From Paracyclopina nana (taxonomy: Eukaryota > Arthropoda > Copepoda > Cyclopoida > Cyclopettidae), in the NCBI GenBank assembly GCA_019096065.1, contig JAGUCH010000004.1, positions 8,184,001 through 8,248,000 on the forward strand: DNA of 64,000 bases, written 5' to 3'. Position 1 is the stretch's first letter, and each line of letters opens with the position of its first letter. A program made the position numbers and the translations under genes. Shown piece by piece: positions 38,071 to 64,000 of this stretch. A model generated the notes under the pieces. The model worked only from the letters and a program-made list of their open reading frames with translations. It did not search any database and was not told the DNA's origin.

Positions 38071-38286
38071 AAGCTATTAACTACCTCAAAATGTGTTAGT
38101 TAATTCTATTGACTTTTTGCTAAATAGCTAATGAAGTAATAACCAAAGTAGTGACATTTCCACATTGTTTTGCACATAATATGCATTATAGGCTTTATCT
38201 TGCTTACTATTATTATCTGATATCAGTTAATCATAGGAGCGGTAACTGGCAGCTTAAAGTGCACTTTGCTTGATTTTTTATTCAAG

Positions 38287-38622
38287 ATGGGCCTTGCTAA
38301 CATCGTTTCATATGTACTAGTGTTCCTGTTTGGTGGAATGACTTACTACTTTTATCAATCTGCCAATGAAGAGAATCCAGTGAAAGAAAAGTCACAAGAG
38401 GATACCCGAAAAAAGGGAAGGGAAGATTTGAGCAAACAAAGGGAGGAGCAGTGGAGGAATTCTTGCTCGATTTGCCTGTCAAATACTGTGGAAATCATGC
38501 TACAACCTTGCGGTCATGCTTGCCTGTGCCAGGATTGCTCTATCCAAACGTCAGATCGTGTCCTAAAGTGCCCAATTTGTAGAGAGAAAATCGCCAAAGC
38601 TCAAAAGATATATTGGTCATGA
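38287..38622 (+). CDS. Small membrane-anchored RING-finger protein (MUL1-like C-terminus)
   Basis: Single exon, 111 residues. An N-terminal hydrophobic segment (NIVSYVLVFLFGGMTYYFY, about 5-23) is followed by a charged linker and a C-terminal C3HC4 RING: CSICLSNTVEIMLQPCGHACLC then C-x2-C in CPICREKI. The very short tail after the last zinc pair (AKAQKIYWS) and the QPCGH/CLC spacing resemble MUL1 and related membrane-bound E3 ubiquitin ligases, but the rest of MUL1 is missing. Likely an organelle-outer-membrane E3. It is paired tail-to-tail with a paralog 216 bp away. The start is the only in-frame ATG. Confidence 0.82.
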   Translation: MGLANIVSYVLVFLFGGMTYYFYQSANEENPVKEKSQEDTRKKGREDLSKQREEQWRNSCSICLSNTVEIMLQPCGHACLCQDCSIQTSDRVLKCPICREKIAKAQKIYWS

Positions 38623-38838
38623 TTTCTAATAAATATCAAATACACACTTCTAATGCTACTAACTACTATTATATTGTGTGACACCTATGAGCCAATCAAA
38701 AGCTGGGGCAATAATCACAGGACCAATCAAAAATTATAATTTTATTGACGTTATCTGGTTGCGTGAAGCGAGCCGAGTTTTGTAAGGCCTATAAAAAAAT
38801 TTATTCAACTTGGAGTAAAATCGATGATCAGGTTGTTT

Positions 38839-39207
38839 TTATGACAAGTAGATTCGTTGAATTTTGACAATCTTCTCCCTGCAAATGGGACACCTTTGGC
38901 CCAGGTCTGACATTTTGATGGCACAATTCTCGCACAAGCAGATATGTCCACAGGGTTGAACCAGAATCTCCAGAGGATTTGAAAGGCAAACTGTGCATCG
39001 ATCGTCTTTATCGCCATGATTTTTCCTCTTCACTCGAAGGATCTCCTGGTGCAGCTTCTCATTCTTTTCCTGCTCACTTTTTGCTTTTTGGTAGAAGAAG
39101 AGGCCAAAAAAGGCCGAGCAGAGGATGACAAGTAGCTCAAAGGTTCTCTTGAGTGTCTGGCTGAACCGGTTGGCCACTGATGGCGTCACTGGCTGTTCTT
39201 GCACCAT
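38839..39207 (-). CDS. Small membrane-anchored RING-finger protein (paralog)
   Basis: Single exon, 122 residues from the Met at 39207. A hydrophobic segment (ELLVILCSAFFGLFFYQKA) is followed by a charged, probably helical linker (SEQEKNEKLHQEILRVKRKN) and a C-terminal C3HC4 RING: CTVCLSNPLEILVQPCGHIC, then CPICREKIVKIQRIYLS. It shares the short C-terminal tail and RING spacing with the convergent neighbour, so the pair arose by an inverted duplication. Probably an E3 ubiquitin ligase of an intracellular membrane; substrate unknown. Confidence 0.82.
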   Translation of the reverse strand: MVQEQPVTPSVANRFSQTLKRTFELLVILCSAFFGLFFYQKAKSEQEKNEKLHQEILRVKRKNHGDKDDRCTVCLSNPLEILVQPCGHICLCENCAIKMSDLGQRCPICREKIVKIQRIYLS

Positions 39208-39674
39208 GATCAATCAGACTACTAGCCTTTAATTACACGGTGGCCGGGCGAAATGCAGTTGAGGATTCTTTAAGAGAACCTGTAATTTGTTTATTTATTT
39301 GGGAGTGATTGAGCAGAAAACGACTCAGCCTCAAAGCCTTAGCTGAAATTACGGTTTTCACTACTAAAGCGCTTTTAAAATTATTTGATTACTCAACTTG
39401 ACATTCTAATAAACCCAAACTTTTCGACTTGTTCTTGAACTGACAGGAACATTTCATAAGACTAATTTAAAGAGGTCCTCCCTCGCAAGTATTCAAATGT
39501 TGACAATCTATGACAGTTATCCTAAGAAATCCTAGGAAGCTCAATCATGACGAGTAAGAGGAACCAAGACCTAATCCTGATGACGACGAAAAGAAGTCAA
39601 TAGGTTTCTGCCATTATTTATTCCCGATCAAAAGGCAAAAAGAGAACAGACACAATCTACGCGATGTTGCGGCC
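39208..39674. other. Intergenic, RING paralog to RPL18A
   Basis: About 470 bp with the RING gene's promoter and the RPL18A 3' flank. Nothing further recognised. Confidence 0.35.
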
Positions 39675-44777: not shown

Positions 44778-45882
44778 ATGGCCTTGGTGGTTGATAGAGC
44801 TGGTCTGCTCTTTGACACTTTGGCACTGAGAATGAAGCCTTTGAGAGATGCCTTGCTTCTGGCTGGCCTTTATTATACAACCAAATGGGCCTGCAAAGGC
44901 CTCAGAGGGGCCTTCCAAGGGTTCAAGACTTTTGCTTTGCCTGTAATTTGGCCAAGGGACTTCCCAAAGGAATATGGAGCATGGGCTGGTAGAAAATTCT
45001 CAACAATTCATCATTATTACTGTTTTGATTGGCCTTTCTTTGCAGTTATCACTGGATGCACCAGAGGCATTGGCCTTTGCTTTGCTCAAGAATTGGCCAG
45101 AAGGGGAATGCATTTGGTACTCATTGGCAGAGACAAGCCAAGAATTCAGTCATTGGCTGAAGAGTTGATGCTCAAGTACCAAATCAAGGTTGAAATCATT
45201 GAGGCCAACTTTGCCAAAGGCCAGTCTATTTATGAAATGATCAAGGATGGCCTTGCTGACAAGGAAATTGGCATTCTGGTCAACAATGTGGGTGTCATAC
45301 CACCCCACCCAATGTATTTTCATGAGGTAAGTTGTCATAGTTTTTTTAAGCCAAGGCTTCGCGACAAGTCTTGGCCTTTCCTAGGTAACCGAAGACCAAA
45401 TTTGGAACTTGATCAATGTCAACATAGCTTCAGCCACAATGATGACAAAAATAGTTTTGCCCAAGCTGATGAGAAGAAGGAAAGGAGCCATCATCAACTT
45501 GGCCTCAAGTGCTGCTTTGGATCCTCAGCCTTTACAACAAGTGTACACAGCGACAAAGGCTTACATGGACTTTTTTTCGAAAGCCTTGGCTTGCGAATAT
45601 GCTGAATATGGCATCACCATTCAAACTGTCAGCCCAATGTATGTGTGCACTGAAATGGTGGCCTTCAGTGATTCCTTGAGCAAACCAACATTGCTTGTTC
45701 CAAGTCCAGAAGCCTTCGCAGCCCAAGCAATCAGGACCTTGGGATTCAGCTCGAATACCACTGGCTATTGGAGTCATGGGCTGCAAACCAGCATCATGGG
45801 ATTTTTCATCTTTCCAAAGCTTTGGATAACCAAATGTATGAACCAGCAGTTTCGCAAAGAGGCCATGAAAAAATTGAACTAG
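44778..45882 (+). CDS. HSD17B12: Very-long-chain 3-oxoacyl-CoA reductase / 17-beta-HSD 12-like SDR
   Basis: Three exons, 44778-44988, 45046-45326 and 45385-45882, 329 residues. A hydrophobic N-terminus (DALLLAGLYYTTKWACKGL) anchors it in the ER. Classical SDR motifs are all present: cofactor TGCTRGIG at 73-80, NNVG at 150-153, catalytic Ser at 205/206 (NLASSAA), Tyr218 and Lys222 in YTATK. The C-terminal arrangement (EYAEYGITIQTVSPMYVCTE) matches HSD17B12, which reduces 3-ketoacyl-CoA in fatty-acid elongation and can act on steroids. Intron 1 is 57 nt and in frame; reading through it would break the Rossmann strand. A 5' UTR acceptor (TTTACAG at 44768) precedes the ATG; AATAAA at 45925. Confidence 0.9.
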
Positions 45883-46936
45883 GCCATACTTTTCAATTAG
45901 TTTAGATCTCATTTTCAAAATATGAATAAATGAAAGCATTGTGTGAAAGCTGTTTATTTTTGGCATGAAGAACTTCTTCTTCTTCTGGCAGAGTGTCTAT
46001 TGATCAAACAATTGCAAAAGGGGCCCCCTCCAAATCCAAGGTGATTTCCACAAGGGAATTCACCAACAACATCCACACAAAATTAGACACACAACTACAG
46101 ACAAATGTGCACATGGTCAGTCAGTGCTGGCAAGTTGGGAAATGTCAGCACTCTTCATTGCTGAGACCTTAAAAACTGGAATTTATGAAAAAAGGTTCAA
46201 GAGGTCATCCGAAATGCCAAGCACTCCCAAAGTCACTCCATTCATTCACGCGTAAGCCAGAAAAATTGTGTGTTAAGTCACATAGGAAATGGGAGCACAC
46301 AAAGTAGACAGTTTTAAGGGAAAAGTTGGTGAATTCCCATGGGAGTCAAAAAGCAAGGCTGCTTTCTCAGCTACATTGCTTTGGTGTAGACCAGGTTGAC
46401 ACAGAAAAGAGCTAGTATACTTACTTAACACTATTATTGTGTCCATCATGGCTGTTATTATTACCATTAGTACTAACAACTCTGGTAAGTCACATCTTTT
46501 TATTGCATGTCTAAGGACATTTCTTTCTGCACAACAACAGCTTTCTTATTACTTATAATGGCTGCTCTCTATCTCTAGTGCATTATAATGCTTCATTACA
46601 CAGCCTATAAACCATGATTAAGTTGTGTTTGAAGTTTTCACATAAATCATATGGGCGACAAGTAAAATTCAATTTTATTTTTTCTGTTCATTTTCATTTT
46701 GATGCAGCATCACCTCACCAGCCTTGACCCGTATGATCGTAGCTTTTATCGTTAGTTGTGAAACTTTTTTAAGCTTGGTGAAATAAGTATGATTGCTTTT
46801 TGGCACAGAGAAGGTTTCTGCAGAAATATTGCAAGCCTTTTATTGCCATTATTATCTGCATTGAGTCAGAGCCACACACAAAAAGACACTTCAGTTTTGA
46901 TTGTCAAGGCAAAGTCGGTAGAAATATAAAAGCAAT
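45883..46936. other. Intergenic, HSD17B12-like to dynein first exons
   Basis: About 1 kb with the 3' UTR of the reductase gene and presumed promoter of the first dynein leader exon. No other gene, RNA or repeat recognised. Confidence 0.4.
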
Positions 46937-46998
46937 ATGAGTACCAAGAAAAAGAGTGGATCAGTGAGCTTTTACATCTGCTGCAAACTGAAAACAAT
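46937..46998 (+). CDS. Candidate alternative first exon A of the dynein heavy chain
   Basis: ATG to donor AT|GTAAGC, 62 nt, phase 2, encoding a 20-residue leader (starts MSTKKKSGSV, ends CKLKT plus a split codon). Joined to the acceptor at 50265 it continues [14 protein letters not shown] in frame. Shares the terminal K-L-K with exons B, C and E. Confidence 0.5.
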
Positions 46999-47275
46999 GT
47001 AAGCTCTATTTTAACAAATTAAGTGATAAAAAAACCTTTCACTTAAACTATTCTGCTGATATGAATAAATGTTTGGTTACTACTTGCTATAATAGCATTG
47101 TCTATAATGGAATCCAGATTTTACTTGAATGCGGAATAGCCATGAATGAAGAAAGAGCTACAAAAAATCAGGCAATCAAGAGTTGCTTTGCTAGCTATGT
47201 AGTCTTCATATTTTTGTGTACTGCACTAATATTAGCTCTGTCATAAAAACGTGACCAACTTGATCAGATAGAAAA

Positions 47276-47343
47276 ATGAATTCAGTGGGATTCAAGGGAA
47301 AAGCCTCAATTAGCATTTTCTTGTTTGCTAAGCTAAAAGCCAA
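47276..47343 (+). CDS. Candidate alternative first exon B of the dynein heavy chain
   Basis: ATG to donor AA|GTAAGT, 68 nt, phase 2, leader MNSVGFKGKA...LFAKLKAK. The strong donor and the LFAKLKAK ending, followed after splicing by IRRKKMAS, make this one of the best candidates. Confidence 0.6.
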
Positions 47344-47670
47344 GTAAGTAACATTCAAATGCCCACGTAACAATGCCAATTTTATTATGACGTTCTCTTC
47401 AATTTATGTTTCTTTTTTCGATGCCCGCGTGATTAACCTATAATGACCACTCAGAAATATCCCCATGCTATGGAAAATCACCATTTTTAAATAAATCAAG
47501 CTCCTTCAAATTATTTTTAAATGACATGCATACTTGTTTCTTTTAAATGAACTCTCTCGCAAAAAATATCCAGATGACCGATCTATCATAATCACTTTTT
47601 CACAACTCCTTTTAACATAAGGACTACTTACGACCACTCTCTGTGGAATCTAAATGACCACAATTAAAAG

Positions 47671-47978
47671 ACCACTCTCGGTGGACCACTCTCGGTGGAC
47701 CACTCTCGGTGGACCACTCTCGGTGGACCACTCTCGGTGGACCACTCTCGGTGGACCACTCTCGGTGGACCACTCTCGGTGGACCACTCTCGGTGGACCA
47801 CTCTCGGTGGACCACTCTCGGTGGACCACTCTCGGTGGACCACTCTCGGTGGACCACTCTCGGTGGACCACTCTCGGTGGACCACTCTCGGTGGACCACT
47901 CTCGGTGGACCACTCTCGGTGGACCACTCTCGGTGGACCACTCTCGGTGGACCACTCTCGGTGGACCACTCTCGGTGG
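47671..47978. repeat. 14-bp minisatellite, 22 perfect copies
   Basis: Exactly 22 uninterrupted copies of ACCACTCTCGGTGG (308 bp), 9 G/C of 14 in otherwise AT-rich sequence. Each unit carries inverted half-sites CCAC...GTGG and could form hairpins. All six frames are open because 14 is not a multiple of 3 and no frame forms a stop, so the long predicted peptides here are artefacts. Degenerate copies flank it (GACCACTCTCTGTGG near 47631; GGACCACTTTCTGTGGACC near 48045; GGACCACTCAAAGTGGACC near 48088). It lies between candidate dynein first exons B and C. Confidence 0.98.
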
Positions 47979-48743
47979 ACCATTCTAAAATGACCCCTCT
48001 CAAATAACCACTTTTAAATGTGGCACACTCTCAGGAGCACCGTATGGACCACTTTCTGTGGACCTCAATATTCGGAGCATGTTATGCGGACCACTCAAAG
48101 TGGACCTTTCTCTATTATCTTTAATAGCCAGTCTAAACACTAGACTTTTCTAGCTTCAAATTTACGACCACTAATGACTGCTTCATTATTGCCACTCTTT
48201 AATGGCTTCTCTCATATGACCACTATTGTATGGCCAATCTCTTATGATCACTGTCTTATATCAAAAGACAGCTTGATTGCGATAACTTTTCAATATATGT
48301 CTGTCCTGTAATAAAACCAGAAGCCATTGCATTGGCAATTTTTTAAGTACAACTGAATATCTTGTTTCAGAAACCACCTTTATTAATATTCTGTCTCAAA
48401 TCCACCCAAAATTGACACTCTCTTATTTTCCACAATCTCACTACTTTGCATTGTTCCATTATAATGCATTTGATATGATTAAGTCATTTTTTTGAATGGT
48501 AGCATATAATGCATTTTTTGCCAATTTTGTCTGCTGTCATTGCATAAAAGGCCTTAGTGATAGTGAGAAATAACAGGGTTTCTAGTAATTTTCCATGCCT
48601 ATCTTGTGACCTGGACCATTAGACCAACTTTGTTCCTCGACACTCTTTATTGGAGACACTAATAATAGATTTTTTATGCGTTTCTTGGTACTTTGCATTG
48701 AATCATAGACATTTAATAACAAATCGTTCCAGTCTCTGCCAAG

Positions 48744-48844
48744 ATGTCTCTTAGGAAGGGTGCAAACTTAGTGAGCAAAATAAACTTGAACTCAGCCAAA
48801 AGGACTCAATTGCAGTTGTTTGTTTTGGCCAAGTTGAAATTAAG
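48744..48844 (+). CDS. Candidate alternative first exon C of the dynein heavy chain
   Basis: ATG to donor AG|GTCAGT, 101 nt, phase 2, leader starting MSLRKGANLV and ending LFVLAKLKLR. The longest of the five; the tail LAKLKLR matches LFAKLKAK of exon B. In frame with IRRKKMAS after splicing to 50266. Confidence 0.6.
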
Positions 48845-49523
48845 GTCAGTCACAAAGAATAATGGAGCACCTGAACATTATCATACAGCCATAATAAGTC
48901 AAGACATTTCTGTTGACAAACGTGATAGATTGCCACAACTGCTGACTTGTTAACTGTCCATGTCAGTAAGCTGCCTGCAATCATTGCCAAGCTTTTTAGG
49001 CTTAAAGCTTTTGAGCATTCAGTGCCCTTTAGGCCTTAAGCTGACATTGCCACTTTTCTCATATTTAACCAACTGTCAAGTTTATTGCTCTTTATCGCTG
49101 AACTAAAGAAAAAACAACAAGATTTTATGCATAATTTCTGAAAATTCACCAAGAGACCACAAATGACATAAAATTCGAAATTGAAATTGTACTTTATGTA
49201 TCGCCCATGGCTTAAAAAGCCTCACCACTAAAATAAAAAGTACATCTTTCTAACTTTGATGAGTCTAGAATTAAAATCTAGACATGGCTTAAAATAGTTA
49301 TCAATTTAAATTAGGATATGCTTGCAATAGAAATGTTAAGTTATAGGCTCTTGCGCAACTTCTAGACAAAGTTATTCAATCACCAAATAAGTAAGCGCCT
49401 TTCATGTCTCCAATAAGGCAAAGTAGGCAAAATGCTTTCACCTTAAAAGAGGTATAGGTACACAATAAGGACAGTCAGTTTGTAGATCAACACCAATCCA
49501 GAAGCATATTTATTGTTATCAAA

Positions 49524-49573
49524 ATGGCTACCAGTTCATTAGTTCCTATGGTTTTTGCAAGACTCAGAGCCAG
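49524..49573 (+). CDS. Candidate alternative first exon D of the dynein heavy chain
   Basis: ATG to donor AG|GTAATC, 50 nt, phase 2, encoding MATSSLVPMVFARLRAR. The tail FARLRAR is a conservative version of FAKLKAK in exon B. Confidence 0.6.
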
Positions 49574-50147
49574 GTAATCTTGACCTAACATCAAAATTGT
49601 TCATTGATAATTGGCAATTATCCGAAATGAGTCAAACTTCAAAGTTTTAGATGATTTTAAAACTTTAAGTTATGAAGTTGTAATTTGGCTAGATTATTAC
49701 CATTTTGATATGTTTTGAGCTGAAGCTTTTATCACTGCTCTATTAAATTGCTTGGCTTTTCAAAAGTTAGCAGCTTTATTTGATCTTGTTCTCCTATAGT
49801 TAAATCAAATAGAAACATTGGCATCTTAATTTTTCTTCTCAGGTTGAGCATTCGAATTGATTTGCTGTCATTCAAGTTTTATTTTAGTGGGATTAATTTA
49901 GGTTGGTGCCAAGAAAGCTGTGGTGCAATAATGAAAGTTAGTAGCTCAGGCTAAGGAATTTTCCATAGAGCAATATGAGACTCTACTGAGTGTTTATGGT
50001 CATGAAATACAGTAGTTACAGGAAGCATTGTGAAAAACAATGCTTAAGAGATCACGGCAATAAACAATACAATAGCTTTTGGTGCTGCAATGTTTCCAAA
50101 AGGATCAGTCAGGCCATTTAGTTTATAGCTATTGATTCATCAACAGC

Positions 50148-50185
50148 ATGGATAATTTGCTTGTTCTAACCAAACTCAAATCCAA
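50148..50185 (+). CDS. Candidate alternative first exon E of the dynein heavy chain
   Basis: ATG to donor AA|GTAAAC, 38 nt, phase 2, encoding MDNLLVLTKLKSK. The nearest of the five to the shared body; the intron to 50265 would be 80 nt. The tail LTKLKSK followed by IRRKK resembles the LTQRLKGEKEAKR region at the N-terminus of vertebrate DNAH5 as I remember it. Confidence 0.6.
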
Positions 50186-50265
50186 GTAAACAAACTTAGC
50201 CTGCCTTGTCATCATCATTATGCCTAGTCTGTAATCTATGCCTAAATCTTTTCACTGTATTCCAG

Positions 50266-53200
50266 AATAAGAAGAAAAAAGATGGCTTCCAGGGAGGAAG
50301 AGCTTCAGAAAAAGAGGGAGGAGGCTGAAAGAAAAGCGAGAAGGGGTGAAATTGACCCTACCCATGAGTTCACATTTCAGGTAAAACAACTTAACCAATT
50401 TACATTTAGCTACGTGCAAGCTTGTTTATTTCAGATTGTGGCCCAGCTTAGTGGGCTGCTCAGGCATGAAATCATGGACTTCATGTTCTCCAATCCTACC
50501 ATGCTTGATGATTTGGACTACTTGTACAAGTCTGACACTGCAAGGAAGCTCATGTTCTACTATCAGGACGAAAGGATCAAAGATGATCTGGAAAAGTACA
50601 AGTCCAAATCTAAGAGAAGAGGAGGAGAGAAAATCAAAGAAATTCCACAGACAGTCAAGAAGGTCTTGACTGTTGAAGATGGGACTGATGCCCCACTGAC
50701 AGGAGTGGCAATTTATCTGCTCAGAACTTCCACTAAAAGGACTCTTGGGTAAGTCCATGTACAAAATGAGTAAAAGAAAACACAGATAACTATTTTCATA
50801 CAGGGAGGAGACCTTTCAGAGGGAGATCATGTGTGGATTGTTGAATGCTCAAGAAGGAGACTACATTCTTTGGAACATAGAACGAACAATCACAAAGATT
50901 TACATTCCTGTCTTGCTTGACTCTTGTATGGGAGACAAAGGGACAAAAGACCTATTGATAAAGGTGAAAATTACTAGAATCACTCTGATCTAACAAATCA
51001 AAGATTGATGTTTAGGTGAAAAAAGAACTACTGCCATGTCTGAGGTCATTCACAAGTTCACTAAGAGTTGCTGAGCTTGTGTGGAATGAGGGAACACTGA
51101 TCAAAGACTATCCTCCTGAAGCTTATGACATCAAATGTATGGATGACACTTGGGAGTACTTAAAAACAGAGAATGCAGTTCCAAAATTTGAAAGCTACAT
51201 CAGGGGATGGATGAAGCAAATTCAAGAGCTGTTGCTTGAAAGCGAACAGCTAAGGTTGGAAACTGATGATGCTGGACCTCAAGTAAGTGATATCACATAA
51301 AGTTAAAAACATAATGTTAAACAAAACTTGCTGGTTTGATCTTAAAGGATGAATTGGAGTATTGGAAGGCAAGAGGAGCAAAGTTGACCTTGCTTGTTAA
51401 TCAAATCAATACTCAACCTGCTAGGATGACTCTGGTCACTCTGAGAGCAGCTCAGTCAAAAATTCTCAAAGTATGGAATAACATTGACAAGAGGATAACC
51501 AAGTACCATGTAGAAGCAGCTGATAATGCCAAGTTTCTTGGTGCTATTGAAAAAACTAGTCACTCCATTTACTTGGAAGATCCAAGTGAACTGAAAGGTA
51601 ATGATAAACAGTAATCAATGACAAACAGCAAGGCAGACAATAATTATGATATTTCAGAGTCATTGATGAGAGTTATACATATTGTCAAGATGATTTATAA
51701 TGTCTCCCACCATTACAATACACCAGAAAGAGTGGCATCTTTGCTGGTCAAAATCACAAATCAAGTAATCAGAACCTGTAAGAGGTACATAACTCAGGGA
51801 GGAAGGAAAACAATTTGGAATCAAGATAGAGTAGAAGTGGAAGAGAAACTCATGCAATGCATCAAGTTGAATCAAGACTACAAGGATGCCTATGCTAGGG
51901 TTAAGAACAGAAAAGTTGGCAAGGAAATCAGAGAGTTCAGCTTCAGTGAGAAGTATATTTTTGGCCGATTTGATTCCTTCTGTACAAGGCTGAGGAACTT
52001 GCTGAGCATGTTTAAGAAGATTAACTTGTACACAAGGCTATTTAGTGAAAGAATGGAAGCCCTCCTACCTGAAGAAGCCTTGGAAGATGACTTTAAGAAC
52101 TTTGACTCAGCTGTCAGGGTTCTGACATTGAGGGACTATGACTATTTGGACTTTCGCAATGAAGGTTTTGACAAAGACTATGTTGAGTTCTTGAGCAGGA
52201 TGGACACACTAACAGACAAATTGCAAAATAAGCTTGAATCTACTTATGATGGAGTATGGGATACACCTCATGCATTCCAATACTTGCCAAGGTTTGAGAA
52301 ACTTTCGGAGGTAATGCCAGTAGGCCATCTCTCTGAAAAATACTTGAGGATGATAAACACATTCAGCCATGAGATGGACCGAATAACTAAGTTCTTCAAG
52401 AAGCAGGTAGGTAGACCTCCTATCCCAAGAAACTATCCAGACTCCTCTGGAAGAATTGCATGGGCAAGGAGTTTATTGCAGCATCTAAAATACTTCATGG
52501 AACACTTCAAGATTCAGAGAACATTGAAGAACCGCCCTGAGTATTCTTCCCTTGTTAAGCAATATAACGAGACTGGTGTGATGCTGATGAGGTATGAGTT
52601 GGATGTACAAGAAAATTGGAAAAATCTCCGTATCAGGCAGATTGAATTCATGATTTCCAAACCCATATTTGCCACCAATGATGTTGGTGAATTTGTGTGC
52701 AATTTTGATAGAGTGTTCTACACTTTTCTGAAAGAAAATGAGAGGTTGGCCAAGATGGACATCAACATACCTAGCGTGAATCAGTTCTTAATCAAGAGGA
52801 AGGACTATTTCATTGAGTACTATGACACAGTCAATATGATCCTTGAAAGGTACAATTCTGCCATGAGTATCATAACTCCGGATCTCAGGCGTTTGTTTAC
52901 TCCTCATGTCAACAAAATGAGAACCAGCCTCGAGCCAGGACTATCTGAAATAACCTGGACTAACTTTGATTGGGTAGAATTCACTGACAAATGTCTTGAG
53001 GATATTGACAACTTCAGATATTTGATGAGTAGAGCTAATGACATCTATGCAAATAGAATAGAGAAGGTCCTGAATGCAATGGACTATGTTAGGCTCTATG
53101 CTCTTCCCAAAACTGAGCCATGGACATTGGACCGATTTCTTGAAGAGATAAAGGACACTTGCAAGGAATCTGCTGCTGACTTGAACCGAAAAAGTATTAT

Positions 53201-56200
53201 GATAGAAGATGCTGTTGAAGACTTGATTGGGCTGGCATTGCAGGCACTAAATTTGCCAGATCCAGATTGTGAAGATGCCTGTTCAATGGGGTCTTCCCAA
53301 GTGTCTCCTGCTGAAAGTGGTGATGAGGGAGAAGCAAGGCCTAAGCCAATGAACAAAAGGAAGAGTAAGAAGAGGGATTCCATTGGATCCACTACGCAAG
53401 AATCGGTACCAATGGCAAACCTTTTGCAGGTTGTGGACAAAAACAGTCAAAATGCAGTCAATAGTGCAGCTAAAGAGCTCAGAAGAAACTATAGCAAAAA
53501 GGTAGCTGACAAGCTTGCCTTCCTGACAAAGACATCATTGAAAATTTTGAGCAAGCATTTTGCTTCTGCCTCCACTGATGTAAAAGTCGAAGATATGGAG
53601 GAGAGTGTAAATAGCATTGTTTTTGTGCTCACTGCTTACTTGAGCATTCCAGACATAGAGGTCAGGCCATCAATTGATGAAGTACAAAGTGTTCTTGTAC
53701 AAGCGGGCAAAATAATCTTAAGTGTCTCTAAGGGTGTGGCAACATGGAAGAAATCTATCAAGAAGCCCAAAACTCCAAGAGGACCTCCAGCAAAGCCTAA
53801 CAAAGACGCACCTAATTTTGTTCCCAACTGTGACAGTGGGAAGGAGCTGAAGCTTTATAGTGCTAAGAAAGAAGAGAAACCAGTTATAACTGAGAAGCAA
53901 TCAAACTTTTACAAAACAGTCTCTGAGAGCAAGGAGGTCAGCAAAATGTACTCAATGCTTTCTGGGTGCATGCAAGGAGTCAAGATGGAATTTACAGTAT
54001 TCAGTAAGATCTGGGATGCGTACAAACATGTTTGGGAGATTGACAGGGAAGATACCATTAATATCTTTCTCAAGAAAAAACCCAAGCTCAAAGACTTTGA
54101 AAATGAGCTGTGCAAGTACAACATGTCCAAGTCCCAGTTGACAACAGAAAAGACAGACTACAGATACGGCAGCATTATGATAGATTGCTCCAACCTAAAA
54201 GAAACCATTGACATGGAGATCAAGCAGTGGATCTCTGTGTATGGTAAAGCAATGCAAATTAAGTACAGACGTGAAATGGATTTCATTGTTGCTCAAGTAA
54301 TTGATTTTGATCGTAAGCTTGACAGACCAATCAATGATCTTGATGACATAAGAATCATCATGGAAACACAAAAGAAAATCAGAGACCAGGAAATTGACAT
54401 GGATATGAAGATTGACTTGGTTGAAGAAGCATTTTCTCTCCTTTCAAAGTATGAAATTCAGCTGACCAAAGAGGAAGTGGAAAAGGTTGAAAGCCTAGAG
54501 TACAATTGGCTGCAGTTGCAAGGAAAGGCAATGGATGTCCAGATACTTTTGCTTACTGTGCAAGAGCACTTCCAAAAGGAATTGATTGCTAACCTAGAAA
54601 TCTTCCAGGATGATTGCTCACAATTTGTCTTTGACTATCATGACAATGGTCCCATGCAGCCAGGCCTGACCCCAAGAGAAGCCTCTGACCGTTTGCAAAT
54701 GTTTCAGAACCACTTTGATGCCCTATGGAGAAAACATAGTTCATATACCATTGGGGAAGATCTCTTTGGTTTACCACACTCTGAGCAGCCAGAGCTCAAT
54801 AAGATCAAAAAGGAGCTGAACTTACTGCAAAGGTTGTACAAGCTGTATAATGATGTCATTGACAGTGTCAATAATTATCATAATATTCCCTGGGCTGAGG
54901 TTAACATTGAAGACATCAATAATGAGCTGCTTGAGTTCCAAAACAGATGTCGTAAGCTGCCCAAAGGTCTCAAAGAGTGGCCAGCTTTCCATGCCTTGAA
55001 AAAGACGATTGATGACTTTAACGACATTTGTCCCTTGCTTGAGCTGATGAGCAACAAAGCTATGAAATATAGGCATTGGCAGAAAATCCAGCAGATAACT
55101 GGATTTACCTTTGACTTGGAGAGACCAGGCTTCTGTCTCAAGGACATTTTGGAAGCACCTCTCCTTCCAAACAAAGAAGACATTGAAGATGTCTGCATAT
55201 CAGCTTTGAAAGAAAAAGATATTGAGGCAAAGTTGAGACAGGTTACAAGTGAATGGTCTACACAAGAACTGTCTTTTATGGTATTCAAGAACAGAGGAGA
55301 GCTCTTACTTAGGGGAGACACAACAGCTGAGATTGTAGGGCAAGTCGAGGATAGCTTGATGGTTTTGGGCTCATTGCTATCAAACAGATACAATGCACCA
55401 TTTAGGAAGCAAATTCAGAAATGGGTGCAAGACTTGTCAAATACAAATGAAATTCTTGAACGATGGCTCCTGGTACAAAACATGTGGGTTTACTTGGAAG
55501 CTGTATTTGTGGGTGGTGATATTGCAAAGCAACTGCCAAAAGAGGCCAAAAGATTTTACAAGATTGACAAGTCATGGCAAAAGATCATGCTTAGAGCTCA
55601 TGAAACTCCTGGAGTTGTAAATTGTTGTGTTGGTGATGAGTTCTTGAGACAAACTTTACCTCATCTACAAGAGCAGCTTGAGCTTTGTCAGAAGTCATTG
55701 ACTGGGTATCTAGAAAAGAAGAGACTCATGTTCCCAAGATTCTTCTTTGTGTCTGATCCTGCTTTGCTTGAAATTCTTGGACAAGCCTCAGACTCACACA
55801 CCATTCAAGCCCACTTGCTGTCAATATTTGACAACACAGCTAATGTCAAATTCCATGAGCAAGATTACAACAAGATTCTCTCTATTGTGTCTGCTGAGGG
55901 TGAGGTTGTTCATCTTGAAAGACCAGTGAGAGCAGAGGGAAGTGTGGAAGTATGGTTGATGTCTTTGCTGACTGCATCTCAAGAGTCAGTTCATTGCATC
56001 ATTAGACAAGCCTTTCATTTCATCAATGACAACCAGTTTGACATGCTGGAATTCCTTGGTAGATTCCAGGCTCAAGTTGGTATATTAGGAATACAAATGG
56101 TCTGGACTCGAGACTCTGAATCTGCACTTGTCCAATCCAGATCAGATAGAAAAATTATGCAAGAGACCAACAACAAATTCCTTGATGTCCTTAACACTTT

Positions 56201-59200
56201 GATTAGTCAGACCACCAAAAATCTAGACAAGATGGAAAGAACCAAGTTTGAAACTCTCATCACTGTACACATGCATCAAAGAGATATATTTGACATGTTG
56301 GTACGCCTCAACATAAGATCAGTTCAAGATTTTGAATGGCTGAAGCAATCAAGGTTCTACTTCAAGCAAGATATGGAGAAGACAATGATCAGCATTACTG
56401 ATGTCAACTTTTATTACCAAAATGAATACTTGGGCTGTCAAGAAAGACTTGTCATTACCCCACTAACTGATAGATGCTACATAACCTTAGCCCAAGCCTT
56501 GGGCATGTGCATGGGGGGATCTCCAGCTGGTCCTGCTGGTACTGGCAAAACAGAGACAGTGAAAGACATGGGCAAGTCATTGGGGAAATATGTAGTTGTG
56601 TTCAATTGTTCTGATCAGATGGATTACAGAGGCTTGGGTCGGATTTTCAAGGGCCTTGCTCAATCAGGTTCTTGGGGATGCTTTGATGAATTCAATAGGA
56701 TCACATTGCCAGTTCTGTCTGTGGCAGCTCAACAAATAGCTGTTGTGTTGGGATGCAAGAAAGAGAAGAGGAAAACATTCATCTTCACAGATGGCGATAC
56801 AGTGGAGATGAACCCTGAGTTTGGCATCTTCCTTACCATGAATCCAACATACCAAGGAAGGCAAGAGCTTCCAGAGAACCTTAAAATTCAATTCAGGAAT
56901 GTGGCCATGATGGTGCCTGATAGACAAATCATCATCAGGGTGAAGCTAGCCAGTTGTGGTTTCCTTGAGAATATCACTCTTGCTAGGAAGTTCTTTACAC
57001 TCTATAAATTATGTGAAGAGCAGCTGACAAAGCAAGTACATTATGACTTTGGTCTGAGAAACATTTTGTCAGTCCTGAGAACATTGGGAGCCACAAAACG
57101 AGACAGTCCAAAAGACTCAGAATCAACCATTGTCATGAGGGTGTTGAGAGATATGAATTTATCAAAATTGGTTGATGAAGATGAACCCCTTTTCTTGTCT
57201 CTGGTCAATGACCTATTTCCTAACATGCAGTTGGAAAAAACTGGCTATCCAGACTTGGAGAATGCAATAGCAGATAAAGTAGAAGAAGCAGAACTGATCA
57301 ACCACCCTCCATGGACAATCAAATTGATTCAACTGTATGAAACTCAAAGAGTGCGTCATGGGATCATGGTTCTTGGGCCAAGTGGTGCTGGCAAGACATC
57401 TTGTATTCAAATACTGATGAAGGGTTTAACTGTTACTGGACTACCACACAGAGAAATGAGGCTTAACCCAAAAGCAATCACTTCTGGTCAGATGTTTGGA
57501 AGGTTGGATGTTGCTACAAATGATTGGACAGATGGGATATTCTCAGCCTTGTGGAGAAAAACTTTAAAAGCAAAGAAAAATGAGCACATCTGGCTAGTTT
57601 TGGATGGACCAGTTGATCCCTTGTGGATTGAAAACTTGAATTCAGTCTTGGATGACAACAAAACTTTGACATTAGCCAATGGTGACAGACTGCCCATGAT
57701 GGCTAATTGCAAACTTATATTTGAACCTCAAAACGTTGATAATGCATCACCAGCCACAGTATCACGAAATGGTATGGTCTACATGTCCAGCTCTGGTCTT
57801 GATTGGAATCCTTTGTTTGCATCCTGGACCAAGAAGAAGAAAGTATGCCCAGAAGATGCAGCCAAAATGAGGAGGCTATTTGAAGAACACTTTGCAGATC
57901 TTTTCAAATGGTGCTACACTACTCTACATATGGTAATGGATATCATCCAAGTCAATATTGTCAATCAAATCTTAGCAATGCTTGAAGGCCTTCTGCCATC
58001 TATGCAAGTGGATGAAGAAGAAAAGACGCCTTCAGCATCTGAGCTGAAAAAAGAAAAACGGTATCAAAGTGCTAAAAATGATGACAGTGATGAGGACGAT
58101 TATGTTGAGGAAAGGATCAAACGGAAGATTGAAGTTGAGAAGATCATCAATAAAGAGGACACTGAACATGAGCAAATCTTTATATTTTGCTTACTGTGGT
58201 CCTTGGGAGCCTTCTTGGAAAGCAGTGATAGGATTAAGTTTGAATCTTATCTAAATAAGCACACTAAGCTAAAAATGCCCAAACTCCCAGATGGTGACAG
58301 TATTTTTAACTACAATGTCAATGTCCACACAGGCAAATGGAGTCATTGGAACAATCTCATTCATGACTACCAACCACCAGAAATTACACCCTTGATCTAC
58401 AGTTCTCTTCTTATTCCGAATGTCAGCAGTATAAGAACAGAGTTCTTGATCAATTTAGTGGCAAAAAATGAGTTCTCTGTCTTATTGATGGGTGAGCAAG
58501 GATCAGCTAAGACAACCATGATCAATTCTCACATTAAGAACTACTCCCCTGAGAGCTTTATGGTAATGGCATCAACCTTCTCATCAACTACTACACCTCA
58601 ACTTTTCCAAAAGAGCATTGAAAGCAATGTTGACAAGAGAATGGGAACAACCTATGGACCACCAGCTGGAAAAAAGCTCATTGTATTCATTGATGATGTT
58701 AACCTTCCATCTTTCAATGAATGGGGTGATCAAGTGACTAATGAGCTACTTAGACAACTGATGGAAATGGGTGGCTTCTACAGTCTTGAGAAACCAGGAG
58801 ATTTTAGCAACATTGTTGATGTTCAGTATTTGGCAGCTATGATACAGCCTGGAGGGGGTAGAAATGACATACCACAGAGATTAAAACGGCACTTTGTCAT
58901 CTACAACTGCACACTTCCTACCAATGATGCAATTGATAGGATATTCAAAACAATAGCTCTTGGTCACTATAATGAGCAGAGGCAGTTTGTAGATGATGTT
59001 TGTCAGTTGGCTGAGAAGTTGGTTCCAATTACCAGGATTCTTTGGTTCACAACAAAGACCAAAATGCTTCCAACACCAGCCAAGTTCCATTACATCTTCA
59101 ACTTGAGAGACTTGAGCAGAATTTGGCTTGGAATGATTGGCACAATACCAACAGTCATTAATAATGAAGCTGTTATGCTTCACTTGTGGAGGCATGAGTG

Positions 59201-62200
59201 CACCAGAGTACTAGCAGACAGGTTCATCACTGATGCTGACAAAGAATGGTTTGATGTTGAGCTCATGAATACAATTCACAATGAACTAGGTGAAGAGCAA
59301 GCTGAGATCATTAGAGAACCAAAGTACTTCGTTGACTTCATGAGGGATGCGCCTGAACCAACTGGAGAAGAGGTTGAAGACACAGACATGGAGCTTCCCA
59401 AGATTTATGAACCTATTGAGTCATTCAAGGCACTTGAAGACAGGCTCAGATACTTTTTAGACCAATACAATGACATCATCAGAGGATCAGACATGGACCT
59501 GGTCTTCTTCCCAGATGCAATCATCCATTTAATCAAGATTTCTAGAGTTATACGAAACCCAGGAGGAAACTTGATGCTTGTTGGAGTCGGTGGATCAGGA
59601 AAGCAATCCCTAACTAAGTTGGCTACTTTCATTGCTGGCTACAAAACATTCCAAGTGACTATGACTAGGTCCTACAATGTGGGTAACTTTTTAGAAGATT
59701 TGAAGGTCTTGTATAGGACATGTGGTATTCAAGGCAAAGGCACCACATTCTTATTCACAGATCAAGACATCAAAGAAGAGAGCTTTCTTGAGTATGTCAA
59801 TAATATTTTGGCATCAGGTCTGGTCTCAAATTTGTTTACAAGAGATGAGCAAGGAGAAATCATAACTGAGCTGATTCCCATTATGAAAAGAGAATGCCCC
59901 AAAATCCCACCAACCCCAGAAAATGTCATGCAATTCTTCATTGACAGAGTCAAAAACAACTTGCATGTTGTTCTTTGTTTCTCACCTGTTGGAGAGAAAT
60001 TCAGGAACAGGTCACTCAAGTTTCCAGGGCTGATTTCTGGCTGCACTGTTGATTGGTTCCAGCCCTGGCCTAAAGATGCTTTGGTATCAGTGGCAACCCA
60101 CTTTTTGGGAGACCAAGAGTTCCAATGCAGCAATGATACAAAAAGACAACTTTTCAAAACCATGGCTCAAGTCCAAGATTCAGTTTCATTGGCTTGTATC
60201 AACTATTTCCAAAAGTTTAGGAGGTCAGCTCATGTTACACCCAAGTCCTTCCTCTCTTTCATCAACAGCTACAAAGAGGTCTATGTTCGAAAAGAAGAAG
60301 ACATAGGAGATATGTCTCAGCGAATGAACTCTGGTCTGAACAAGCTTGAGGAGGCCTCTCAATCAGTTGAGTTACTGAAGGAAGAGCTCAACGTTATGGA
60401 GAAGCACTTGAGAAAGGCAAACAAAAAGGCTGAAGAAGTACTGCTAGAAGTTACACAAAAAGCAAAAGAGGCAGAGAAAATCAAGGAAAGTGTGACTAAA
60501 GTAAGAGACAAAGCTGAAAAAATTGTTGCTCACATTGGAGTTGAAAAAGCATATGCTGAGGAAAAACTAGAAGCAGCTAAACCAGCTTTGGAAGAGGCTG
60601 AGGAAGCACTGAATACTATCAAACCAGCAAACATAGCAACAGTTAGAAAGCTTGGAAGGCCTCCTCACTTAATCATGAGAGTCATGGACTGTGTCATAAT
60701 TTTGTTTAGGAAGAAGCTATCAACCATGATGCCTGACCCCACTGTACCCTCTCCCAAGCCATCATGGGGAGATGCTTTGAAAATAATGGCTTCAACCTCC
60801 TTTTTGAGCCAGTTGCTGCATTTTCCTAAGGACACTATCAATGATGAAATGGTTGAACTCCTGGAGCCATACCTGACAATGGAAGATTACAATATGACAA
60901 CTGCCAAGAGGGTTTGTGGTGATGTTGCTGGTCTGTTGTGCTGGACCAAAGCAATGGCCTTCTTCTTTGGTGTCAATAAAGAAGTTTTGCCACTTAAAAT
61001 CAATTTGGCATTCCAAGAGGCAAGACTAAAATCTGCCAACAATGACCTGCACAGAGCCCAAGTCACACTTATCCAAAAAGAGGAAGAGTTGTCTAATGTG
61101 AAGAAATTGTACTGCTCTGCTGTTAAGGAGAAGCAAAAGCTGACTACAGAGGCTGAGATTTGCAGAAGGAAAATGTCTGCAGCTTCAACATTGATAAATG
61201 GTCTTAGCGGTGAAAAAATGAGATGGACAATGCAAAGCAAGGCTTTTAAAGAGCAAATGGTTAGGCTTGTTGGAGATGTTCTTTTGGCTTGTGGATTCCT
61301 CTCATATGCTGGACCCTTCAATCAAGAGTTTAGACAGTCCTTGATGCAAAATTGGAAAGGGTTGCTGAAAAATCGGAACATTCCTTACACAAATTCTATA
61401 AATGTCGTTAACATGCTGATTGACACCATTGAAACATCAGAGTGGGCACTTCAAGGGCTTCCAAATGATGAGCTGTCACTTCAGAATGCAGCAATTGTAA
61501 CAAAGGCCCAAAGCTACCCATTACTTATTGATCCTCAAGGCCAAGGCAAGATTTGGATCAAGACTAAGGAGCAATACAATGACTTGCAAGTGACATCACT
61601 TAATCACAAGTACTTCAGAACCCATCTTGAAGATTCATTGTCTTTGGGAAGACCTTTACTTATAGAAGATGTTGGTGAAGAGCTGGATCCTATACTGGAC
61701 AATTTGCTAGATAAAAACTTCATTAAACAGGGTACCATCATGAAGGTCATGCTTGGTGACAAAGAAATGGATATCCTTGATGGCTTCCAGCTATTCATCA
61801 CTACAAAGCTACCCAATCCAGCATACACTCCTGAAATCAGTGCAAGATGTGCCATCATTGATTTCACAGTCACCATGAAGGGCTTGGAAGATCAGTTGCT
61901 TGGTAGGGTAATCAGAATGGAGAAGAGTGACTTGGAGACAGAAAGGTTGAGGCTTGTTGAAGATGTACTAGAGCATAAGTCAACAATGAAAGACCTTGAA
62001 GACAATCTTCTTGAAAAACTCAATTCTGTAGAAGGTTCTCTTGTGGAGGATGAAGAGCTGATTCATGTGCTTCAAGAGACAAAGGCCACTGCTGAGGAAG
62101 TAAGCAAGAAGCTAGTTGTAGCCTCAGAAACTGAAGCAAAGATCAACACAGCTAGAGAAGAGTACAGGCCAGTTGCCACCAGGGGCTCCATCTTGTACTT

Positions 62201-64000
62201 TTTGATTGTTGAGCTGAGCAAGGTAAATGTCATGTATCAGACATCACTGAGGCAATTCTTGAATCTTTTTGATGGCTCAATCACTAAGTCAAAACCTACC
62301 CACATTGTTGAAAAGAGGATCAACAATGTCTTGGAATACCTCACCAAAATAGTGTGGCGATATACTCTGAGAGGACTCTACGAGAGGCACAAGTTTTTGT
62401 TCACTCTCTTGCTGGCTCTCAAAATTGATCTGAACTCATCAAGGATCACACATGCAGAGTTCCTATTGCTTCTGAAGGGTGGTGCAGCATTGGATTTGAA
62501 TGCTGTAAAACCCAAGCCATTTCGATGGATGCTTGATGTCATTTGGCTGAATTTGGTAGAATTAAGCAAGCAGGAGATTTTTAATCAACTATTGGAAAAA
62601 GTCACTGAAAATGAAAAAGAATGGAAATACTGGTGTGACACAGAAGCTCCCGAAGAAGAGGAGATCCCTTGTGGATACCAAGCAACACTCGATGTCTTCC
62701 GCAAACTTTTACTCATAAGAGCCTGGTGCCCAGACAGAACCTTGTCACAGGCCAGGAAATATATATTTGACTCTCTTGGAGCAGAATACCTAGAAAGCAG
62801 TGTTTTGGATTTGGAATCAATGCTGGAGGAATCAGATAACAGAATTCCACTCATTTGCTTATTGTCTATTGGTTCAGATCCTACTCCACAAATTGAAGCT
62901 ATTGCAAAGTCAAGGTGCCAGGAAATGCATGCCTTGTCAATGGGTCAGGGTCAAGAAGAGGCAGCAAGGAAGCTACTCACAGTGAGTCATGACTTTAATT
63001 GATATTATTTTGCGTTATAACACTTTTATGTAGGACTCAATCGCTCAAGGACATTGGCTACTGCTTCAAAACTGTCACTTATCCTTGTACTTTTGTGATG
63101 AAATCATGCAAACTGTTATTGACTCTGAGGAAATTCATGCCAACTTCAGGCTCTGGTTGACAACAGAGAAGCACCCACAATTCCCCATTGGTCTGCTTCA
63201 AATGTCAATCAAATTTACAAATGAACCACCTCAAGGAATCAGGGCTAGCTTGAAGAGAACATATTCAGACATAACTCAGGATACTTTGGACTATTCCAAT
63301 CACCCAAGCTGGCCTATGTTGCTGTATTCTGTTGCGTTCTTGCACACAGTTGTGCAGGAAAGGCGAAAGTATGGAGCATTGGGATGGAATGTACCCTATG
63401 AGTTCAATCAAGCTGACTTCTCAGCGTCAATACAGTTCATCATGAATCATTTGGATGATCTGGATCCTAAAAGAGGAATTTCTTGGAACACAGTCTGCTT
63501 TATGCTTGGTGAAGTCCAATATGGTGGAAGGGTAACTGATGACTTTGACAAGAGGCTATTATGCACCTTTACCAATGTATGGTTTTCTGATGGTCTCCTT
63601 CAACCTGGCTTCAAGTTCTATGAAGGCTATCCCTTGCCTGACTACAAAACAATTGATGAATACCATGATCACATTATCAACATGCCTCTTCAAGACATCC
63701 CTGAAGTGTTTGGATTACATTCAAATGCAGACATTTCATACCAAATCAATACAGCCAAAGGCATTCTTGACACTATCTTGAGTGTGCAACCAAAGGAGAG
63801 TGCAGCTGGCAAACCAGGAGAGACCAGAGAGGCAATAGTATACAAAATTGCAGAGGACATGCTTAGGAAGTTACCAAGGGACTATGTTCCTCATGAGGTT
63901 AAAGAGTCATTGGTCAGACTAGGTGGTCTACTTCCAATGAACATATTTTTGCGACAAGAAATTGATCGAGTTCAAAAGATTCTCACAATGGGTATGATAA
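50266..64000 (+). CDS. DNAH5: Axonemal outer-arm dynein heavy chain, DNAH5/8 class (3' end outside window)
   Basis: Shared exons 50266-50380, 50435-50748, 50804-50963, 51016-51282, 51348-51597, 51658-62981 and 63034 to beyond 64000, all in phase. Translation may start at the ATG at 50282, but the exon is open from 50266 ([13 protein letters not shown]) and fits upstream leader exons. Numbering from 50282, the tail domain (about 1-1500) includes the DNAH5/8 signature block ([40 protein letters not shown]). The motor follows with four Walker A loops: AAA1 GPAGTGKT at 1988, AAA2 GPSGAGKT at 2270, AAA3 GEQGSAKT at 2642, AAA4 GVGGSGKQ at 3006; then the stalk coiled coil with the microtubule-binding tip ([18 protein letters not shown]) and AAA5-6 ([13 protein letters not shown]). 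DNAH5 and DNAH8 are too alike to separate by eye. Powers ciliary or sperm-flagellar beating. Exon 6 is 11,324 nt, exceptionally long. Confidence 0.93.

Follow-up and report, generated by a model that had tools for sequence, protein, structure and literature searches.

A putative array of five alternative coding first exons in the only gamma outer-arm dynein heavy chain gene detected in the copepod Paracyclopina nana

Introduction

Can one axonemal dynein gene supply several motors that differ only at their extreme N terminus? The question is raised by a stretch of DNA from the copepod Paracyclopina nana (GenBank assembly GCA_019096065.1, contig JAGUCH010000004.1, positions 8,184,001 to 8,248,000 of the forward strand; these 64,000 nucleotides are referred to as the window and positions are counted from its first letter), in which five short open stretches, each with its own start codon, lie ahead of the body of an outer-arm dynein heavy chain gene. 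Judged from the sequence, these stretches are probably alternative coding first exons, arranged as a five-member array, of a single gamma outer-arm dynein heavy chain gene. The sections below describe the anatomy of the array, the evidence on the likeness of its members and on possible constraint, the signals that could drive their transcription, the identity of the gene they belong to and the position of the arrangement among known systems.

Anatomy of the candidate first exons

The five candidate first exons and the exon to which they would be spliced are as follows (the residue in brackets is that of the split codon).

46937..46998, plus strand: candidate first exon 1, MSTKKKSGSVSFYICCKLKT(I); motif weaker than in the other four; TCAGTT 46 bases 5' of the ATG
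47276..47343, plus strand: candidate first exon 2, MNSVGFKGKASISIFLFAKLKA(K); similar at the DNA level to exons 3 and 5
48744..48844, plus strand: candidate first exon 3, MSLRKGANLVSKINLNSAKRTQLQLFVLAKLKL(R); strict motif and genome-pattern match, pairwise DNA comparison
49524..49573, plus strand: candidate first exon 4, MATSSLVPMVFARLRA(R); TCAGTT 49 bases 5' of the ATG
50148..50185, plus strand: candidate first exon 5, MDNLLVLTKLKS(K); TCAGTC 43 bases 5' of the ATG
50266..50380, plus strand: shared exon 2; 38 residues follow the split codon; internal ATG at 50282

All five start with ATG, are open throughout and are followed directly by a GT donor in phase 2 (5/5), and the common acceptor (CAG, then AATAAGAAG) opens the shared exon at 50266, the first base of which completes the split codon. 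An alternative first-exon array is marked by multiple exons that each carry a start codon and a donor matching a single common acceptor in phase, and this is the arrangement found here. Because an in-frame stop lies 5-23 codons 5' of the ATG in each of the five, every one of these ATGs is the first of its frame; the leaders that they open are 13-34 residues long. A further in-frame ATG occurs within the shared exon, 16 bases past the acceptor. Between first exons 2 and 3 there is a minisatellite (47670-47986) with a 14-base unit, GACCACTCTCGGTG, present in 22.6 copies with 99% matches.

The common ending: chance or signal

Phase-2 stretches running from an ATG to a GT and encoding at least 8 residues number 41 in the region 45900-50265, and with so many candidates in 4.4 kb, agreement in phase taken by itself is weak evidence. 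What distinguishes the five exons is how they end. Among the 41 candidates the ending [KR]L[KR]xx occurs in these five only (twice for exon 4, through an inner ATG), and the strict form of the motif is found at four distinct donors. In 3000 simulated Markov sequences (1000 each of order 1, 2 and 3, with the minisatellite excluded from the model) the strict count was 1 in a single sequence and 0 in the remainder, against 4 observed; two sequences had a loose count as high as 2, against 5 observed.

The motif was also sought on both strands of the 92-Mb genome. A tight pattern matched exon 2 (47276) and no other exon, for which reason a relaxed pattern, RCNARRYTNARRNNNARGTNA, was used; it was written after the exons had been seen. 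This pattern has 63 matches in the genome (28 and 35 by strand), compared with 44 (20 and 24) for a reversed-pattern control, and four of the 63 lie here, within 2.9 kb. From the other 59, about 0.0014 matches are expected on one strand of a 4.4-kb stretch, so that four matches have, by our own arithmetic, a probability of the order of 1e-13; the post hoc writing of the pattern weakens this figure and scarcely touches the conclusion. Elsewhere, the close groups of matches, three near 1.039 Mb on contig C2 and two near 7.334 Mb on contig C4, consist of identical 21-mers and are probably repeats.

These results bear on the simplest alternative, namely that short open stretches ahead of a GT are common and that look-alikes were picked from among them. 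The abundance of phase-2 candidates speaks for it, as do the roughly 4% of simulations that hold one loose ending like that of exon 1; given that two strict matches together arose in none of the 3000 simulations and that the four genome matches are clustered at this locus, an origin of the whole array in this way is scarcely credible. A chance origin can be called very unlikely for exons 2-5; for exon 1, the poorest fit, it is unlikely with less certainty: that exon ends in CCKLKT(I), lacks a match to RCNARRYTNARRNNNARGTNA and owes its assignment to its loose ending, its phase and its position. A phase-matched array of first exons with a common ending is, on this sequence evidence, well supported. 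The initial annotation had listed five ATG-started exons with GT donors in phase 2 and a common acceptor, all of which were found where it had placed them, and had described a C-terminal motif common to four exons with a CKLKT-type ending in the fifth, in agreement with the four strict donors and the loose exon 1. Its argument that shared phase and shared motif are together improbable by chance is strong as regards the motif and weak as regards the phase by itself.

Similarity among the exons and their flanks

All ten pairs of exons were compared over three segments (the 150 bases before the exon, the exon itself and the 150 bases after it), each against 200 resampled sequences. Pairs 2-3 and 2-5 stand out, with 0/200 and 1/200 resampled sequences as good, followed by the weaker pairs 3-5 (9/200), 2-4 (18/200) and 4-5 (24/200); exon 1 has no DNA similarity to the other four. 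The flanks are near the resampled level, at least 34/200 in 19 of 20 pairs, the best being the upstream flanks of pair 1-3 (7/200). At least exons 2, 3 and 5 would seem to descend by old duplications from a single first exon, with divergence outside the junction.

It is in the coding frame that the endings agree. Over the last 26 bases the mean pairwise BLOSUM62 score is 17.1 in the coding frame versus -1.9 and 2.4 in the other two; the invariant leucine is encoded by CTG, CTA, TTG, CTC and CTC, so that nine of the ten pairs are synonymous and one is identical; and in codons 4-7, 52% of comparisons differ at the third position, against 28% and 30% at the first two. These features are taken to reflect selection on the junction peptide of exons that duplicated long ago. 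Several points pull the other way. The comparison of frames is partly circular, since the exons were chosen by an in-frame motif; non-synonymous pairs outnumber synonymous ones over all eight codons (48 vs 18) and are about level with them in codons 4-7 (15 vs 16); and the second lysine displays no synonymous change at all. The excess of non-synonymous pairs is read as hydrophobic positions being free to change.

Possible promoter signals

TCAGTT and TCAGTC (together TCAGTY) are forms of the arthropod initiator, and one or the other lies 43-49 bases 5' of the ATG in three of the five first exons (1, 4 and 5).

46891..46896, plus strand: initiator-like TCAGTT before exon 1; suggestive only
49475..49480, plus strand: initiator-like TCAGTT before exon 4; suggestive only
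50105..50110, plus strand: initiator-like TCAGTC before exon 5; suggestive only

In the window TCAGTY occurs 30-60 bases ahead of 27 of the 1449 plus-strand ATGs, which gives a binomial probability of 6e-5 for three exons in five (1e-3 when the range is widened to 80 bases), and at 30-60 bases it precedes 3/5 first exons vs 0/20 other candidate ATGs. The case is weakened on several sides: the distance range was picked after inspection; up to 80 bases the comparison becomes 3/5 vs 3/20 (Fisher P 0.07); the starts of 293 crude open reading frames (ORFs), most of them probably not true gene starts, have no clear initiator peak (1.02 per kb at 20-60 bases vs 0.51-0.85 elsewhere up to 200); and the upstream flanks hold no strong common element, with no exact 6-mer present in at least four of the five 110-base segments upstream of the exons. 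When a mismatch is allowed, 32 7-mers and one 8-mer are found in these segments, at scattered positions. A promoter signal before the first exons is therefore best described as suggestive, on mixed evidence. A scan for bacterial-type promoters and terminators, which was discarded as unsuited to an animal gene, gave 17 and 3 where shuffles gave 13.4 and 2.7.

TCAGTY is absent within 80 bases of the ATGs of exons 2 and 3, which counts against five working promoters and favours the idea that no more than one or two exons are in use and that the rest are decaying duplicates, still recognisable through age alone; the weak motif of the exon at 46937 and its lack of DNA similarity to the others point in the same direction. 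Neutral copies that old should have lost their frame or their donor, whereas all five have retained their frame, donor, phase and motif despite diverged flanks, and the change seen at the leucine is synonymous. Decay of this kind is accordingly considered unlikely, and an array of five alternative first exons remains the preferred reading.

The heavy chain gene and its N terminus

The body of the gene follows the shared exon.

50435..63002, plus strand: DNAH5/8-type heavy chain body; short introns to about 51659, then a single open stretch of more than 11 kb

Compared with solved dynein chains by means of HMMER, the spliced N-terminal 502 residues match human DNAH5 (8j07_n0) best (E 2e-82), then 9fqr_I3 (E 1.4e-63), a chain of 4730 residues labelled CFAP57 that we take for DNAH8, and then further outer-arm chains. 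Pfam recognises DHC_N1, DHC_N2 and AAA_6, with DYH2-5-8_CC barely over its cut-off (27.3 vs 27). By these matches the gene is classed as a DNAH5/8-type (gamma) outer-arm dynein heavy chain, which bears out the DNAH5-like body of the initial annotation. Its length, compared with the 4624 residues of DNAH5, indicates that it probably runs on beyond 63002. Positions 51660-63002 form a single open stretch of about 3,780 codons, an unusual layout among heavy chain genes; human DNAH5, by comparison, has 79 exons.

When the 502-residue query is searched in the genome, this gene is recovered at 100% and the three remaining matches are at 27, 21 and 19% only, so that a single gamma chain is detected. 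The DHC_N2 profile has 11 matches at ten places. One of the loci on contig C8 (L005) encodes a DNAH17/DNAH9-like heavy chain and another about 0.19 Mb from it (L003) a chain that is similar by eye; the beta chain may thus exist in duplicate beside a single gamma chain.

The alignment with human DNAH5 begins at KKREEAERK, corresponding to DNAH5 residue 19, and that with 9fqr_I3 at REEEL. The residues IRRKKMAS lie outside both, contrary to the earlier proposal that they are the region matching the N terminus of vertebrate outer-arm chains. Human DNAH5 starts with MFRIGRRQ, in which RIGRR resembles the junction RIRRK, a likeness with no alignment behind it. A profile built from the five isoforms returned no significant match for the leaders among solved dynein chains, a result that lends the leaders no outside support; with DNAH5 the profile aligned from KKREEAERK onwards only. 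Weak profile hits to release factor 2 and a ribosomal protein that extend into the leader or the junction have E values from 0.31 to 6.2 among the matches listed.

Translation could instead begin at the inner ATG at 50282, the upstream exons being 5' leaders and the acceptor perhaps taking a different 5' end, for example a trans-spliced leader. This ATG could serve alone, which tells against coding leaders, and neither the DNAH5 nor the 9fqr_I3 alignment requires anything upstream of it. The window has no Rfam match at the gathering threshold. Given that the leaders carry in-frame ATGs of their own and that their peptide likeness is confined to a single frame, a feature for which non-coding leaders would have no need, a true start at 50282 is very improbable, and five coding first exons are retained as the preferred interpretation.

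Proposed use of the array and relation to known systems

If the exons are used as proposed, each would have its own promoter and start codon; transcription would begin at one of them, and the chosen phase-2 donor would be spliced to the acceptor at 50266. The product would be one motor body with five interchangeable N-terminal leaders, joined to it through a common junction of about three hydrophobic residues followed by A/T/C, K/R, L, K/R and any residue. A likely use would be the cell-type-specific supply of gamma chain from one gene, for instance to sperm vs sensory cilia, in which case the five exons would mirror cell types or stages of sperm. The leaders, hydrophobic and then basic, may be part of the N-terminal region by which the arm is held together or docked. 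The full proposition, that at least five outer-arm dyneins are made from one gamma gene, differ only in the leader, are each driven by their own promoter in their own ciliated cell type or sperm stage and have the place or manner of arm packaging or docking set by the leader with its junction, is tentative and more doubtful than the array itself.

Precedents exist for parts of this arrangement. Human DNAH5, a member of the same gene class, is described as having an alternative first exon ahead of a common body (PMC11344339, with Hornef 2006 as its reference 13), one according to the passages concerned and not four as here. For mouse Dnahc8 (DNAH8, of the same gamma class), testis isoforms differ, by the title of Samant 2002 (in the reference list of PMC2978682), at the amino terminus and also at the carboxyl end. 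In Drosophila, excerpts of PMC6367277 divide the gamma chain between two genes, with CG9492 serving chordotonal neurons and kl-3 serving testis (one table gives kl-3 as Ch + Testis), in contrast to the one gene with several first exons detected here; by analogy, a single gene of this kind could do the job of the CG9492 and kl-3 pair. The same excerpts describe CG17150 (DNAH3), an axonemal heavy chain with distinct isoforms in chordotonal neurons and sperm produced from one gene via alternative splicing, which differs in being an inner-arm chain. Outside the dyneins, the ryanodine receptor gene unc-68 of C. elegans is a single invertebrate gene with tissue-specific isoforms in place of several vertebrate genes, and its source names 'alternative promoters' seven times (PMC7644089); the protein is unrelated.

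The initial annotation knew of no such array for an axonemal heavy chain. This needs qualification, as an alternative first exon within the class is on record (PMC11344339, in the portion cited), and holds for a five-member array with a conserved junction motif, none of which occurs among the matches listed in the open-licence literature. With alternative first exons already known in this gene class, the novelty of the array is moderate. If true, the scheme would represent a promoter-based stand-in for the split into DNAH5 and DNAH8 genes; if the exons are used, outer-arm dyneins would vary at their extreme N terminus through promoter choice, with no gene duplication. Such use would make testable whether the leader of a gamma chain carries cell-type information for the assembly or docking of the arm. 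It would also give reason to inspect the alternative first exon that human DNAH5, a primary ciliary dyskinesia gene, is reported to have.

Other observations in the window and the genome

Upstream of the array, the last listed ORF of the neighbouring gene, which we take by eye to be an HSD17B12-like reductase, ends at 45882, about 4.4 kb before the shared exon. Further upstream, at 38221-39213, two adjoining ORFs on opposite strands have very similar RING-finger-like ends (CSICLSNTVEIMLQPCGHACLC and CTVCLSNPLEILVQPCGHICLC) and are likely a local duplication.

Repeats of the TTAGG type are characteristic of arthropod telomeres. Such repeats (CCTAA, with many variants, CCCAA and CTCCAA among them) are present at the starts of contigs C2, C5, C6 and C7 (L023, L026, L027 and L028), that is, at 4/10 contig starts in the printed parts of 3-kb pieces, C8 and C9 printing as N, which suggests that these contig ends are arthropod telomeres. 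The start of C1 (L022) and the end of C4 (L032) have GGCCT/AGGCC-type repeats instead of TTAGG in their printed parts.

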